DNA of 24,383 nt, taken from a virus. This document shows, piece after piece, positions 15,501 through 23,311 of this stretch (its first letter is position 1; each line of letters opens with the position of its first letter). The position numbers and the translations under genes are program-made. A model generated the notes under the pieces. That model saw only the letters and a list, made by a program, of their open reading frames with translations, did no database searches and had not been told where the DNA came from. The stretch spans positions 1-24,383 of IMG/VR virus record IMGVR_UViG_3300046820_000151, one strand, 5' to 3'.

Positions 15501-16730
15501 GCTCGTCTGATGCCTAAGTATGGAGCAGTGCTGGGTGCTGGTAATGATCTAAATAAGGTCAAAGAAGCTCTACTGCAACACGGTATTGACTTCGATACTA
15601 CCCCCAATGCTATGTCCATCTTTAAGGGACTGCAGGCTGAGTATTCAGGTCGTCTTGCCTTTAGCTCACTACTGACCACTGGTCTCTTTGGTTATGCCTT
15701 GAGCGGTAAGGTTCGTGGTAATGGACCTCCGAATAAGTCAGAACGTCAGAAGCTACAGAATAACTTTAACTGGAACCCTAAGACCATTAACATTGGTGGT
15801 AAGTGGGTTAGTTATGCAGGGTATGAGCCACTAGATACTGTCCTAACAACGATGGCTGATCTGGCTTACTACGCTACTGATATTGGATCTCCTCTTGTTG
15901 AAGACTATCAGACAAAGATTGCCTGGACCTTAGCTGCTACCTTTGTTAATAAGACATTTGTACAAGGACTTGATCCTCTCCTTGCCATCATTGATGGTGA
16001 TGAGTCACGTCTAACTAGGTTCCTTGCTAATGAGGCACGAGCTGCTATTCCTTGGTCTGGTGCTATGGGTGTCGCTGCTAATGCTATTAGCTCCACACAG
16101 AAGGACGTGTATAACGACCTGATGGGTTATGTAGCTAATCGACTGCCTGGACTTAATACCACATTACCTGATCAAATTGATATCTTCACTGGTAAGCCTA
16201 TCAACGACATTGATAACCATGTACTTCGTGCATTGAATGCAGTTAACCCTGTGAAGATCAGCGAAGGTACAGAGCCTTGGAGGCAGTGGCTAATCAATAC
16301 AGGTTGGGATGGTATTCAACAGATCCGTAAGGACTCTACTGGTAACCACGAGTACACCTCTACTGAACGTGAAGTACTCTACAAATACATCGGTGAACAA
16401 CAGATCTGGAAAGAGTATGACCGTCTATCTAAGAACAAAAAGTACAACGATCAACTAGATCGTATCCGTGCAATGCGGGTAGAAGGTTACGACTCTAAAG
16501 AGATTAAGGCTGCATCTTCTGAAGTCTATGGTGTTTTAGATGACATCATTAAGAATGCTCAGAAAGTGGCTGAACAACGTCTACAGTCTGAGAATGAACC
16601 TATGTGGCGTTCTATTCAGGAAAGTATCCGCAGTAAGGATATGATGAAACAGGGACGTATAGACGATGCTCGTAGGTCTGCAGATCGTCGTAGACAAGCA
16701 ATTGAAGAACTTACCCAAATGTACAAGTAA
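12528..16730 (+). CDS. Large internal virion protein (T7 gp16-like)
   Basis: The 1400-residue product is similar in length to T7 gp16 (about 1318) and follows the gp15-like gene. The N-terminus is hydrophilic and Pro/Thr-rich. A Gly/Ala-rich hydrophobic segment occurs near residues 165-205 (LPSLAVGRATGGIATGG, then AGVLGINLAGDVAINMVS), which may reach the membrane. Most of the rest is helical, with repeated short phrases and a basic helical end (DDARRSADRRRQAIEELT). I see no lytic transglycosylase motif at the N-terminus, unlike T7 gp16; the muralytic domain is in the preceding protein instead. Expected role: with the two preceding proteins, form the periplasmic tunnel and motor for DNA entry. 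Call based on size, order and composition. Confidence 0.83.
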   Translation: MTQPIFISDEEKQALEEAAKQYQAENAAVKTTAPTPETTFKTPTAEENKKAGNVQPVKSPAQQGIAQLTGNKPSQPKPDPNKPLNPGSGFMYGSGDPNANLAEDLNTYAQNTMEGIGTLGMSLIDFGMDAIGRIPGAERIDDGWDEKTKFQNPVFRKVRELASIVLPSLAVGRATGGIATGGSVAKAAGVLGINLAGDVAINMVSDQSTGETLANMVKGAAPWMPVPDALVVKPTDSPEERRYKNMYESAGLSVIGDVIGFASSGGRAIMDWFQPNDDVAKTYKATEAVVNMDSATAARVSELQTQRAAVDAQGTALSQVVPTTPEEAFLQNSNLDELRKTAKGLQDESVELTSEYLSKGSSRVTENPFESFVERQQISRELQIDEVGKSRLMDDPLGVDTDPFITPHMFPEGSSAALSIEPGAVARNAGDVAAIKLGGSTGTPVPLLSERAYYDISQGNARTRDIVAEMAEAHRAAGNFDAIIDGFRYTKAQMSDGAWKVYTDIMQLGDVKKIQDYFLDGKDVKTLLDGRKVKYLNDVQAEGVGYAMRDLVQKYIGKDVTEQSARVMDTLGREISDIADGFKALPETADAVRVNEMIGDRLAFLMEEYGLNKYIAGWSLKAQDRWKMMFQKGTDKEATVKQLMSQFDLKRVELGKRAEAYKQMLQTAQKEHPEAMQALIDAFALSNGDVDTIAKLMNWAAKQMNPLGLVKSMTDEGGLNAFAQGAWAVRYGNVLGGLSAARAIVGNGVNLLLRPINSYLGTGIQMMLGNQGLDDLKRVHYSYTSVWATNNRALGDAWNHFKRLHTEGKWGDDLHLRPHTLARADLETGDRSVIEVLDQMVPTWEKEGNIGRLWQYKGVKLLHQIGNWNMLKYGTNALQSADMLVRTNVATQMARFRAYDEVMSLGYKGQELADQLANAEKLAYGEMFDSAGNITDTALQHASGEIALQLDDATANFVNIATAKLPFLKPFFMFPKTGMNGVKLAMSYTPIARLMPKYGAVLGAGNDLNKVKEALLQHGIDFDTTPNAMSIFKGLQAEYSGRLAFSSLLTTGLFGYALSGKVRGNGPPNKSERQKLQNNFNWNPKTINIGGKWVSYAGYEPLDTVLTTMADLAYYATDIGSPLVEDYQTKIAWTLAATFVNKTFVQGLDPLLAIIDGDESRLTRFLANEARAAIPWSGAMGVAANAISSTQKDVYNDLMGYVANRLPGLNTTLPDQIDIFTGKPINDIDNHVLRALNAVNPVKISEGTEPWRQWLINTGWDGIQQIRKDSTGNHEYTSTEREVLYKYIGEQQIWKEYDRLSKNKKYNDQLDRIRAMRVEGYDSKEIKAASSEVYGVLDDIIKNAQKVAEQRLQSENEPMWRSIQESIRSKDMMKQGRIDDARRSADRRRQAIEELTQMYK

Positions 16731-19021
16731 TGGCAACCAATGCGTGTGCTAACGTAGAAATTCGCTACAAGGGGGATGGCTCAACGAAGCTGTTCCCATT
16801 TCCATTTACATATATTAGACCCGAAGATATCTATGTATCTCTCTGGGATAACACAACTAAAGAGTACGTACAGTTAGCAAGCACTGAATGGTCGTTTGCC
16901 AACGCTACAACAATTGAATTCAAGACAGCTCCTGTTAATCCTCCGGTACCATTACCTGGGGATCCACAGGTCTTTAACGTTAAGATCAGCCGCTCTACTA
17001 AAGTTGATCGGATGTTGGCTCAGTTCTATCCTGGGTCTGCTATCCGAGCAGAGGATCTTAATGATGACTTTGAACAACTACGCCTTGCTATTGAAGAGCA
17101 ACGGTGTCAGCTATTCGGAGATATCATTGAACTCCTTGATAATAAGTACTGGAATAAGATTTCCTTTGGTACTGGTGGTAGTACAATGGTTGAACAGAAC
17201 CAAATCAATGGTGACTGGCAACGCAACCTAAACGATAAGTTTATTGCTACCACTGATGCTATTGCTGAGAGGTATGATCCAGAAGTAACTGATACCCTAC
17301 CTACGCCTACAGCTGGTGATATCAACGGTAAGACGTGGTACGACACAGAGGAGATCGTTGAACGGTATTGGGATGACACCCTAGAGAACTGGATTACTGT
17401 TGCTAACACTGGTCCTGTTGGACCTAAAGGTGATGTAGGTAATGCAGCTCGTGTATGGTTTGGAACCTCATCTCCCACCGACTTTACTACTTATCCATTA
17501 TGGCTTGACACCCGTACTGGTATTCTATATGCCTATTACAATGATGGTGATAGCACTCAATGGATTAGCACCAGTAAGGCAGGCCCACAAGGCTTGAAGG
17601 GTGATAAGGGAGACAAGGGTGATACAGGCTTACAAGGTCTACAAGGTATCCAAGGCTTTGTTGGTCCTCAAGGTCCTGCAGGTCTAACTGGTCCCCAAGG
17701 TATACAAGGTGATAAGGGGGACAAAGGGGACAAAGGGGATACTGGAGATATGGGTCCTCAAGGTCTTCAAGGTATCCAAGGCCCAATCGGTCTTCAAGGT
17801 ATCCAAGGTCTCAAAGGTGATAAGGGGGATACTGGATCTCAAGGTATCCAAGGTCCTAAGGGTGATAAGGGTGACCAAGGTATTCAAGGCATCCAGGGCA
17901 TTAAAGGGGACCAAGGCATCCAAGGTGTTGTCGGTCCAGTTGGTCCTAAAGGTGATACTGGTCTTACTGGACCGCAGGGTATCCAAGGTATCCAAGGTCC
18001 TAAAGGAGATAAAGGTGACCAAGGGGAGAAGGGTGCTACAGGTGATGGTGTGACCATTAAGGGCACTGTGGCTACTGCGGCTGACCTTCCTGCTGGTGCT
18101 GGTGTTGGTGATATGTACATCACTAACAATGACGGCAAAGGTCACATCTCTAATGGTGCCGGTGTTTGGACTGAAGTTGGACAGATCCGTGGTCCTCAAG
18201 GTCTCAAGGGGGATAAGGGTGATCAAGGCATTCAAGGTCTGACTGGTCCTCAAGGTCCTGCAGGTCCTGCTGGTGCTGACTCCACAGTTGCTGGTCCTCA
18301 AGGTCCCAAAGGTGACACTGGTCTTCAAGGCCCACAAGGCGTTAAAGGTGATACTGGAGCTACGGGTCCTCAAGGTCCTCAAGGGACTCAGGGTCTGAAG
18401 GGTGATAAAGGTGACACTGGCCCTCAAGGTCCTGCTGGATTAGACGGTGCTCAGGGTCCTGCTGGAGCTACTGGTCCTCAAGGCTTGAAGGGAGATACTG
18501 GCGCTACTGGTCCTGCTGGTCCTACAGGTCCTCAAGGTCCTGCAGGTACGAATGGAACCAACGGTGCTGATGGTGCTGCAGCCACGATTGCTGTAGGTAC
18601 TGTCACTGCTGTTGCAGCTGGTGGTACTCCTACGGTTACCAATGCTGGTAGTGCTAATGCTGCTGTCTTTAACTTTGGCCTTGTAACTGGTGCTACTGGT
18701 GCCCAAGGACCACAAGGGATACAAGGTCCTAAAGGTGATCCCCAGACTAAGGCATCTACTGTTGACGTATCTACAGGAACTGATGATGTTAAATACATCA
18801 CATCTAAAGCTTTGTTTGATGCTGATAGGTACATCAGGAACTACGAAGATGATGCAACGACAGGTACCCTTACCTTGAATGCGTCTACCAATAATAGCTT
18901 CCAATTCCCTAAAGCTAGGGGTACCAATAACCAGTGTCTTGTTACTCGTGGTGATGGTACTACCTATTGGGGTGCTATCTACTTGCCGCTCGATATCTCA
19001 ACCCTTACTGCGTTACCATAA
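16730..19021 (+). CDS. Tail fibre protein with T7-type N-terminus and collagen-like shaft
   Basis: Residues 1-130 match the T7 gp17 N-terminal (tail-attachment) domain: VEIRYKGDGSTKLFPFPFTY, IYVSLWDNTTKEY and FYPGSAIRAEDLNDDFEQL. After a linker with a small module (about 233-283; VWFGTSSPTDF) come about 90 Gly-x-y triplets in two blocks (residues 285-439 and 488-616), plus a short third block near 653-671. They are rich in GDKGDKGDT, GIQGIQ and GPQGPA and split by a globular insert (about 440-487; GTVATAADLPAGAGVGDMY). These should form a trimeric collagen-type triple helix, with proline-poor Gln/Lys/Asp triplets. The C-terminus ends YLPLDISTLTALP, a tag shared with the next gene, and lacks an obvious receptor-binding tip. 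The tip may be supplied by downstream genes. The stop overlaps the next ATG (TAATG). Confidence 0.92.
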   Translation: MATNACANVEIRYKGDGSTKLFPFPFTYIRPEDIYVSLWDNTTKEYVQLASTEWSFANATTIEFKTAPVNPPVPLPGDPQVFNVKISRSTKVDRMLAQFYPGSAIRAEDLNDDFEQLRLAIEEQRCQLFGDIIELLDNKYWNKISFGTGGSTMVEQNQINGDWQRNLNDKFIATTDAIAERYDPEVTDTLPTPTAGDINGKTWYDTEEIVERYWDDTLENWITVANTGPVGPKGDVGNAARVWFGTSSPTDFTTYPLWLDTRTGILYAYYNDGDSTQWISTSKAGPQGLKGDKGDKGDTGLQGLQGIQGFVGPQGPAGLTGPQGIQGDKGDKGDKGDTGDMGPQGLQGIQGPIGLQGIQGLKGDKGDTGSQGIQGPKGDKGDQGIQGIQGIKGDQGIQGVVGPVGPKGDTGLTGPQGIQGIQGPKGDKGDQGEKGATGDGVTIKGTVATAADLPAGAGVGDMYITNNDGKGHISNGAGVWTEVGQIRGPQGLKGDKGDQGIQGLTGPQGPAGPAGADSTVAGPQGPKGDTGLQGPQGVKGDTGATGPQGPQGTQGLKGDKGDTGPQGPAGLDGAQGPAGATGPQGLKGDTGATGPAGPTGPQGPAGTNGTNGADGAAATIAVGTVTAVAAGGTPTVTNAGSANAAVFNFGLVTGATGAQGPQGIQGPKGDPQTKASTVDVSTGTDDVKYITSKALFDADRYIRNYEDDATTGTLTLNASTNNSFQFPKARGTNNQCLVTRGDGTTYWGAIYLPLDISTLTALP
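17582..18577 (+). repeat. Degenerate 9-bp direct repeats encoding collagen Gly-x-y triplets
   Basis: Units such as GGTCCTCAAGGT, GGTATCCAAGGT and GGTGATAAGGG recur many times in two arrays (17582-18046 and 18191-18577), interrupted by about 145 bp that encode a globular module. Near-identical units should make this tract prone to expansion and contraction by recombination. Confidence 0.95.
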
Positions 19022-20630: not shown

Positions 20631-23117
20631 ATGGCATTTCCATTTCCCGTTAATCCGGTAGATGGTCAGCAAGTAACTTATACCAACAGCAAAGGTCGTC
20701 TAATGGTGGCGACCTACTATGCTGCTAAGAATGAGTGGGAGGTGACTACTGCGTTACCTCCTTCCCATCATGTTGGTTCTACTCCTTCCTTTGATGTACT
20801 TCCTGGGGCTGATCAATCGTCAGTCGTTTGGGATCAAACCTTAGGTAAGTGGGTGGCTAAACGGCTGACCTATAAAACTCAAGATCTTACTGATGTTGCG
20901 AACATTGTTCCAACTAACAATCAAATACTTAAATGGAATGATGCTGCCAAGCAATACCAGCCTGCTAGTCAAACAGGACTAGATGTTTGGGAGTCTACAG
21001 CTGATCAAGTCGCTGTACGTCCTGGGGCTACTCCTGCCGATAAGATGGCAGAACGATACCTTGCTTTAAATCCTGGTGGTACACCAATTGAAGGTGAGGT
21101 TATCCTTGTTACTGAAACAGCTAATGCTGCTAATAACATCTATGCTGGTTCGTGGTTCTATAACGGCACTCAGTGGGTCCTAGGGGCCTCTGGAGGTAGT
21201 GCTGGGGTACCACGTCCTACGATCAACTACAGGGCTGCTGGAGCCGATCCTCAAGCGGCTGGTGTACTGACTGGTGACCTTGATATTGTCACTGAAGTCT
21301 CCAACAAACAGATCAACATTTACAACGGTACCATCTATGAATCCGTCCTACGTGAGACGGATATTAAGGGTTGGATTGCCGCAGGTAGTCTTTTCCAAGG
21401 TGCTGTTGATTCTGTAGCTGGTCTTGGTACTAACCTTCCTGCACCTGATGTAACCAACAAAGGGTTCTATTGGACATGGACTGGCCCTGCCTCTACTAAT
21501 GTAACCCCCACTGACTTCACTAATGGTGGTGGCTTTACTACTACCCTTCAGGTGGGTGACTGGATCCAAAGTGATGGCGTTAAGTTCATCCACGTTCCTT
21601 CTGACCTGTTGTCTAAGCTACGTTGGGAAGGACTTGGTTCCTTTAAGACATGGGCTGACTCATCTTGGGAAAAGGATAGTCTTGTAGTACGTGGTGGTAA
21701 ATACTACCGTGCTACTGTTGCTATCGTCCCTGGTGATCTTTCTCCTGAAGATGCTGGTAGTAAGTGGGCTAACATAACACCAACCTATCAACTCAGTGAT
21801 CTAACTGATGTTGATGTGTCTGGTAATACCAATCTGGCTAACAACCTCATTGTCTATGATGCCAACAGTGCTCAATATGTAGCAGGTAACCTCAACCTTG
21901 ATGGTCTTAATGATGTACAAGCTGCTACACGTTCTAACGGTCAACAGCTGGCTGATGGTGATATAGTCATTCGTCTTGGTACCCGTTGGGAAGCTGTTGC
22001 CGCTAAGACATTTTCAGAGTCTTATATTGACCTTAGGGACCTGAAGAATGTTAATGTCACTAACCCTACTGATGGTCAAGCACTGTCGTATAACGGTACT
22101 ACGAATGAGTGGCGTAATGTAGATACAGTTAGGGCTTCGGTTGAGTTCCTTTCTGATGTTGGTGATGTAGAAATCAACCAAGCACCAGAGGTTGGTCAAG
22201 GTCTTGCTTGGACTGGTAACAAGTGGGTACCTAAAACCTTTGGTGGTATGGATGAATGGAAGGCAGGTAATACCTACGCTCAGAACTCACTTGTCCTACA
22301 CAAGAAGGCTGTATGGCTAGCTACTAATGAGATCCTGCCTGGTAATGAGCCTGGTGGTAACAACGCTGGTTCTAACCTTTGGAAGAAAGAGACGGGCACC
22401 ACCCTATCTGAGCTGGACGATACTAACATTGGTACCCCTGCTGACGGTAATCTTCTTAGGTTCCATTCTGGTAAATGGCTTAATCATGCCGTAGCTATTA
22501 GGGATCTCTCTGATGCCAACATTGGAAGTGCACCCACTGAAGGTCAAAGCCTTGTCTACAAGAATGGTAAGTGGACTAACACTACACCTACCGTTACTTC
22601 ACAGACTACTGTTGGTGACATCAAACAGTCCATCCTGACTGAGACACAGTTCAAAGCTCAGATGGGTGTTGATGGTGGTGGATGGGTTCTTGCTGATGGT
22701 AGGAACGTTGTAGGATCTACTTACGCTACTCTCACTGGTCAAGTTAATGTTCCTGACCTTCGTGGTGCTTACCTGCGAATGGCAGGTCAAAGTTCTAGGG
22801 ATACAACTTGGAATGGTGGCACGTTGGGTCAGTTCTCTGGTGATCTCACTAAGAGACCTACTACAGCGTTCACTACCGACAGCACAGGTAGTCATACGCA
22901 CACCATTTGGGGTCGCCGGATGTCGCACTACTCCGGCCACGGTTACTCCTCTGTACCGCAGACGTTCAATGAAGGCATCGACGCCGGAGGTGCGGTCAAC
23001 GCCGACGGCCGCTTCATGGACGCTGATGGTAGTCACACCCACTCCATTAATGGTGGTGGTGACGCTGAAACCCGTCCTAAGACCTACTCCGTTAACTACT
23101 ACATCAAGATCAACTGA
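20631..23117 (+). CDS. Large repeat-rich tail fibre / receptor-binding protein with tail-collar tip
   Basis: The 828-residue protein opens with the FPFPVNPVDGQQVTYTNSKG module. At least seven copies of a beta-strand repeat of the type L-x-D-(V/A/T)-(D/N)-(V/I)-x..P-x-DGQ-x-L-x-Y..W-x-N start near 20884, 21797, 21903, 22038, 22147, 22410 and 22504. Two carbohydrate-binding-like modules are inserted (about 21650-21785 and 22252-22395). The C-terminus is a phage tail-collar domain (GGWVLADGRNV, VPDLRGAYLRMAGQ) with two HxH motifs (GSHTHTI and GSHTHSI), a feature of metal-binding T4-type fibre tips, and ends VNYYIKIN. It should be a trimeric distal fibre that binds the cell surface. The segment between the HxH motifs is unusually GC-rich. 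The 26 bp before the ATG hold no gene. Confidence 0.88.
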   Translation: MAFPFPVNPVDGQQVTYTNSKGRLMVATYYAAKNEWEVTTALPPSHHVGSTPSFDVLPGADQSSVVWDQTLGKWVAKRLTYKTQDLTDVANIVPTNNQILKWNDAAKQYQPASQTGLDVWESTADQVAVRPGATPADKMAERYLALNPGGTPIEGEVILVTETANAANNIYAGSWFYNGTQWVLGASGGSAGVPRPTINYRAAGADPQAAGVLTGDLDIVTEVSNKQINIYNGTIYESVLRETDIKGWIAAGSLFQGAVDSVAGLGTNLPAPDVTNKGFYWTWTGPASTNVTPTDFTNGGGFTTTLQVGDWIQSDGVKFIHVPSDLLSKLRWEGLGSFKTWADSSWEKDSLVVRGGKYYRATVAIVPGDLSPEDAGSKWANITPTYQLSDLTDVDVSGNTNLANNLIVYDANSAQYVAGNLNLDGLNDVQAATRSNGQQLADGDIVIRLGTRWEAVAAKTFSESYIDLRDLKNVNVTNPTDGQALSYNGTTNEWRNVDTVRASVEFLSDVGDVEINQAPEVGQGLAWTGNKWVPKTFGGMDEWKAGNTYAQNSLVLHKKAVWLATNEILPGNEPGGNNAGSNLWKKETGTTLSELDDTNIGTPADGNLLRFHSGKWLNHAVAIRDLSDANIGSAPTEGQSLVYKNGKWTNTTPTVTSQTTVGDIKQSILTETQFKAQMGVDGGGWVLADGRNVVGSTYATLTGQVNVPDLRGAYLRMAGQSSRDTTWNGGTLGQFSGDLTKRPTTAFTTDSTGSHTHTIWGRRMSHYSGHGYSSVPQTFNEGIDAGGAVNADGRFMDADGSHTHSINGGGDAETRPKTYSVNYYIKIN

Positions 23118-23311
23118 TGAACAAAACAGCCGTCGTCCTTATAGCGGTGGCGGCTCCCTTACTCCTTGCAGCAGAGATGGTAGCTAACTGCTGGGTACAC
23201 GATAAGACAAGAGAAGCGTGTGATCCAGATGGGCAAGTACCTGAAATGGTACAAGCTGTAGTTACTACCGTCTTTGCTTGGATGGCTAACCCACCGCAAG
23301 ATAAACTATGA
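23117..23311 (+). CDS. Small membrane protein at the holin position
   Basis: The 64-residue product has one clear hydrophobic helix (residues 5-24, VVLIAVAAPLLLAAEMVANC) after a short basic start, and a second amphipathic segment (about 44-57, MVQAVVTTVFAWMA). Two cysteines (C25, C35) flank a charged loop. It lies between the last fibre gene and the endolysin, where T7 has its 67-residue holin gp17.5 between the fibre gene and gene 18. Length and context favour a holin. A signal-anchored spanin-like protein is the alternative. There is no sequence motif to prove it. The ATG overlaps the fibre stop by one base, and its stop overlaps the endolysin start by 4 bp (ATGA). Confidence 0.65.
   Translation: MNKTAVVLIAVAAPLLLAAEMVANCWVHDKTREACDPDGQVPEMVQAVVTTVFAWMANPPQDKL

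Follow-up and report, generated by a model that had tools for sequence, protein, structure and literature searches.

A GC-rich loop between two GxHxH motifs in the fibre tip of a T7-like cyanopodovirus and its near-identical counterpart in cyanosiphovirus-type phages

Exchange of host-recognition segments in phage fibres

In T-even phages it is well established that adhesin segments are exchanged between conserved motifs, as Tetart and colleagues reportedly described in 1996 and 1998, and this is a close precedent for the case discussed here: a GC-rich patch in a tail fibre gene (positions 20631–23117, plus strand) of the IMG/VR virus record IMGVR_UViG_3300046820_000151, of which the 24,383 nucleotides analysed are referred to below as the window. 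The patch is very probably a recently acquired loop cassette of putative receptor function, which would have come from a GC-rich cyanosiphovirus-type phage by recombination at or just inside GxHxH sequences. As in the T-even adhesins, conserved motifs of the distal fibre act as joints, and the segment between them, which is thought to set receptor specificity, is exchanged; but whereas the T-even exchange was reportedly among myoviruses, here a 114-bp stretch edged by two HxH motifs has moved between phages of different kinds, a T7-like podovirus having it in common with phages of the cyanosiphovirus type. The principle of adhesin swapping between conserved motifs is thus known from T-even fibres, and what is new is its reach across families and the minimal size of the unit; we found no description of loop-sized exchange across phage families in the open-licence literature.

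The needle tip of T4 gp37 (2xgf) and gp12 (1ocy) resemble the tip encoded by the window in having a collar-like part, HxH motifs and a C-terminal strand of the NY(Y/F)IK type. The receptor tip of gp37 has been mapped, and residues critical for receptor binding have been located (PMC6957217); the loop of the window aligns over the critical stretch of that study, H929–Y949 (2xgf numbered from 785), in a part of the alignment that is weak (independent E-value 0.13, with high bias, for the HxH part alone). Seven iron sites are present in gp37 (PMC11705849), whereas the tip in the window has only two HxH motifs, for which metal binding is predicted by analogy; HxH motifs in the fibres of marine phages, cyanophages included, have been discussed as iron sites (PMC11705849). 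Distant Alteromonas phages share whole recognition modules (PMC10579305), so that there, as here, receptor-binding parts cross morphologically distinct families, but their shared module comprises a fibre and its chaperone, compared with only about 38 residues within a tip in the present case.

The patch and its copy in GC-rich phages

An earlier reading of the window from its sequence (the original prediction) had reported 70 G or C in the 110 bases at 22911–23020, between GSHTHTI and GSHTHSI; the count is exact, and the two motifs lie at 22887–22907 and 23028–23048. The richest 110-bp stretch of all 24,383 bp lies at 22914–23023 (71 G or C). GC content at third codon positions (GC3) is a stronger signal than total GC, the value for the 36 codons from 22914 (0.81) being the maximum of 6389 in-frame runs of this length (mean 0.39, standard deviation 0.11). 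The patch also contains codons that are rare or uncommon elsewhere in the window, among them the GCC, GGC and CGC of the original prediction: CGC and CGG, which make up 0.36% and 0.29% of the codons of the window's genes, together provide 3 of the 38 patch codons, and GCC and GGC (uncommon at 1.2% and 1.4%) provide another 5, while GCT and CGT, both favoured in the window, are absent from it. The second most GC-rich 110-bp stretch (21164–21283) is also within the fibre gene, and the fibre residues that follow it (208–375) are 27–30% identical to fibres of GC-rich phages.

When the segment was searched for in other phages, as the original prediction had proposed, a near-identical copy was found in GC-rich phages with unrelated fibre scaffolds. 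Over the loop segment (22908–23021, plus strand), the DNA of the window is identical to that of locus L173 at 109 of 114 positions, whereas elsewhere in the aligned tip 134 of 288 positions agree (p = 5e-23, Fisher test), and the L173 fibre that carries this loop has a scaffold unrelated to that of the window. The same loop occurs in a third scaffold at L244 (again 109/114 over 22908–23021, counted from aligned blocks), and L245 has a diverged version of it. Of the 32 codons within the tract at which the window and L173 encode the same residue, 30 are identical, against 16 of 41 outside it (p = 1e-6), from which we conclude that DNA was transferred, rather than that protein was conserved.

The boundaries of the transferred tract are sharp. 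On the left, identity to L173 ends at the HxH codons; on the right, it ends some 10 bp short of the second HxH motif, and beyond these edges it is about 45%. The maximum-likelihood tract is 22899–23023, with support intervals of 22887–22909 for the left edge and 23021–23029 for the right. Both joints, the first GxHxH motif (GSHTH, 22887–22901, plus strand) and the second (GSHTH, 23028–23042, plus strand), are conserved in relatives. Their HxH codons are synonymous with those of L173 yet different, and so lie outside the surviving tract. The proposal that recombination took place at the HxH-coding sequences is therefore upheld for the exchange of the segment, with the modification that the breakpoints are placed at the HxH codons or slightly inside them; these codons were not themselves exchanged here.

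Judged by its genes, the window is a contig of a T7-like cyanopodovirus (mean 47.1% GC over 24,383 bp) and not of a T4-type phage, because its portal, scaffold, psbA and capsid genes have about 80% DNA identity to those of the T7-like Synechococcus podoviruses S-CBP1/3/4, and the lysozyme, small terminase and HNH genes 3' of the fibre gene also match this group. The contigs of L173, L244 and L245, in contrast, have about 61% GC. In the 31-kb record of L245 the portal protein is nearest to those of S-2L, KBS-S-2A, S-H1 and other cyanosiphoviruses, and the capsid protein of L178, which is related to the GC-rich group, has the same nearest named relatives (S-2L, KBS-S-2A, S-H1); we therefore class the GC-rich carriers of the loop as cyanosiphovirus-type (S-2L/KBS-S-2A-like), a typing from genes and not from tail morphology. 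Compared by blastn with the GC-rich contigs, the window matches L264/L266 in the loop alone; its matches in the record that carries L245 are the loop and part of a small gene following the fibre gene.

Contradictory histories of loop and scaffold

Alignment of related tips revealed the sharp replacement between the HxH motifs that the original prediction had led one to expect. In other T7-like cyanophages, the fibres resemble that of the window in the collar part and at the C-terminus but have different loops: in comparisons with L162 and L170 (two loci on one contig), protein identity is about 60% in the collar part and 88–91% at the C-terminus, but 8–15% in the loop. The native C-terminal end (GGGDAETRPKTYSVNYYIKIN, 23052–23114, plus strand) is common to other T7-like tips. 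In the scaffold tree, the window is placed among T7-like fibres, and a clade with L244/L245 is rejected (approximately unbiased (AU) test, p = 6e-5); in the loop tree it groups, with full support, with L173, L244 and L245, and a clade with other podovirus loops is rejected (AU p = 3e-7). By these trees, loop and scaffold have contradictory histories. A distantly similar loop is found within another scaffold at L082/L168, L084, L164 and L179.

Three further exchanges with HxH edges were found among the relatives. L180 and L247 are 100% identical from the first GxHxH to the second HxH (159 bp) and 55–75% identical outside; L180 is on a contig of 47% GC with a small terminase 93% identical to that of the window, and L247 is on one of 61% GC with a siphovirus-like fibre. 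In L171 and L177, the loops are 93% identical between flanks of about 60%, and the exchange again runs from HxH1 to HxH2, while L164 and L182 show the reverse pattern, with a scaffold identity of 80% and a C-terminus identity of 100% around loops that are only 27% identical. Across pairwise comparisons of 18 tips, scaffold identity is correlated with C-terminus identity (r = 0.62) much more than with loop identity (r = 0.23). Given these three patterns and the contrast in correlations, the unit of exchange, as read from the alignments, is repeatedly the HxH-to-HxH stretch, sometimes with the motifs included.

In the GC-rich phages, two fibre genes lie side by side, and their tip loops differ (at L173, 659–2710 and 2750–4555). 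The loop type of the window is apparently in the first fibre gene of L244 and in the second of L173, and since it occupies different genes of the pair, loops also move between paralogous fibres.

Probable direction and proposed mechanism of transfer

At L173 the GC3 of the loop (0.81) fits that of the fibre gene (0.77), whereas in the window the loop is an extreme outlier against its fibre gene (0.38); the donor was thus probably the GC-rich lineage, and the recipient the window phage. For the other loop type, common to L178 and L180, flow in the opposite direction, into GC-rich phages, is likely, because the loop has a lower GC3 (0.57) than the L178 scaffold (0.82). Loops of this type (L178 4199–4354, L180 52–207) are 96% identical between a phage of 66% GC and a podovirus of 47% GC, and the full shared tract (241 bp, 93%) extends to the start of the podovirus contig.

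The comparisons demonstrate that the loop was transferred, where the tract ends, and that such exchanges recur in related tips. About 114 bp (38 residues) of the podovirus tip were replaced, the probable source being a GC-rich phage of the cyanosiphovirus type, while the collar, the HxH motifs on both sides and the C-terminal strand remained those of the podovirus. We envisage that recombination took place during co-infection, by way of short identical stretches at the HxH codons. If the tip is built like that of T4 gp37, its HxH motifs may form, in the trimer, a clamp at the base of a loop that projects, the HxH pair presumably binding metal; loops that differ in sequence but are of similar length could then replace one another while the fold stays intact. 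Selection may then favour loops that fit between the two clamps; in most of these tips the loop is 39–42 residues long. Homology and position suggest that the loop is probably the segment that touches the host, in which case its exchange might set or alter the receptor used, and with it the host range.

Alternative explanations

Among other ways of accounting for the patch is an assembly chimera, in which the assembler would have spliced in a GC-rich segment from a co-occurring phage. A single read would be about as long as the segment, and the window and all its matches come from metagenomes; even so, a chimera is very unlikely, as it would need two in-frame joints within 114 bp, no identical copy of the segment was found (the best matches have 5 mismatches), the loop is also present in two scaffolds of GC-rich phages, and other pairs, taken from separate contigs and datasets, show the same pattern.

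Purifying selection on the loop protein, by which the similarity would reflect conservation and the high GC would follow from the amino acids, might be suggested by the loop's richness in Gly, Ala, Arg and Asp and by the agreement of 90% of its residues with L173. This explanation is refuted by the same-residue codons described above, whose identity falls away outside the tract even though the flanking HxH residues are conserved too; moreover, other loops of the same kind have only about 52–55% DNA identity to that of the window, and the extreme feature is GC3, not just GC at codon positions 1 and 2. We regard conservation as scarcely credible.

Diversity-generating retroelement systems typically have a variable loop at the tip, sharply delimited, and the present loop might be taken for a product of such an element or of another in-genome mechanism of rewriting. 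That too is extremely improbable: within the window, a genome fragment, neither a second copy of the loop nor a template for it was found, the variant is 96% shared with unrelated phages, alternative loops differ throughout and in length, and the mismatches to L173 are not limited to adenines. An older or larger exchange, such as acquisition of a whole fibre from a GC-rich phage followed by drift of the flanks to the window's composition, would suit tract edges slightly inside the HxH motifs, as edge amelioration might produce, but is hardly tenable, as the flanks group with T7-like fibres (66% identity to L170; C-terminus 88–91%) and not with GC-rich ones, and drift would not leave a single sharply bounded 114-bp block.

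Some observations do weigh against recent acquisition of the loop from a GC-rich phage. Total GC alone is mildly unusual (71 G or C was reached in 3 of 300 sequences under a third-order Markov null of the same composition, p ~0.01); loop-bearing records in IMG/VR are few (13); no sister phage with the same scaffold and the old loop was found, so that the event is reconstructed from the donor side; all compared loci are on metagenome contigs without isolates; and single-chain structure prediction has low confidence from residue 57 on, the predicted local distance difference test scores of 41–51 in the loop making the model unusable there.

Significance for host recognition

The case shows how small a piece phages can trade in host recognition: a single tip loop of roughly 40 residues, probably the segment that touches the host, is common to podoviruses and to phages of the siphovirus type, which belong to different families. 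On balance, we favour the broader idea that cyanobacterial phages of different families draw on one stock of exchangeable receptor-binding cassettes, the HxH-bounded loops of about this size, and that the HxH motifs are at once the structural clamp at the base of the loop and the recombination joint. The pattern GxHxH ... GxHxH provides a sequence rule by which candidate receptor-binding segments can be picked out of metagenomes and unrelated phages with a possible host in common can be connected; whether the loop alone carries specificity becomes directly testable with purified tips.

Tip architecture, searches and neighbouring genes

The fibre gene is an open reading frame of 828 amino acids, whose collar-type tip part (GWVLADG ... 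PDLRGAYLR, 22680–22778, plus strand) belongs to the native scaffold and corresponds to Pfam PF07484 (Collar) at residues 26–55 of the tip, with profile matches to 1ocy and 2xgf. Collar is matched by 13 of 22 aligned tips (best relative, E 2.2e-20), while the window's own copy falls below the cut-off (E 0.046); both GxHxH motifs are near-invariant across the 22. Against PDB, the 22-tip profile matched 9cuy (a phage short tail fibre, 9e-7), 2xgf (1.1e-6, weak per domain) and 1ocy (4.7e-6). The tip of this T7-like cyanopodovirus is accordingly of the gp37/gp12 kind (collar plus HxH); as a correction to the original prediction, which spoke of T4-type fibre tips, the phage is not T4-type and the resemblance to T4 gp37/gp12 is only remote.

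The tip relatives were reached via the neighbouring lysozyme gene, and then via an alignment of tips, after a viral scan with one sequence, that of the entire tip, had found nothing. Among annotated phages, the fibre had no DNA match, the tip protein had one weak match (S-8S29, E 8e-3) and the loop had chance matches only; two short matches in bacterial genomes (about 5e-5, over 17 and 25 residues) were also judged to be due to chance.

A small holin-like gene that follows the fibre gene (window 23117–23311; L262 7438–7602; 71.5% DNA identity, residues 24–61 89% identical) is common to the window, a GC-rich siphovirus-type record and the L244 contig, adjoining the fibre gene in each, and is thus a second part, besides the loop, that the two phage groups have in common. 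Further away, a second fibre gene (16730–19021) consists mostly of collagen-like Gly-X-Y repeats, and an open reading frame at 1786–2115, between an hli-like one and an RlpA-like gene upstream of psbA, has a GLYEGEGN motif and resembles LAGLIDADG homing endonucleases.
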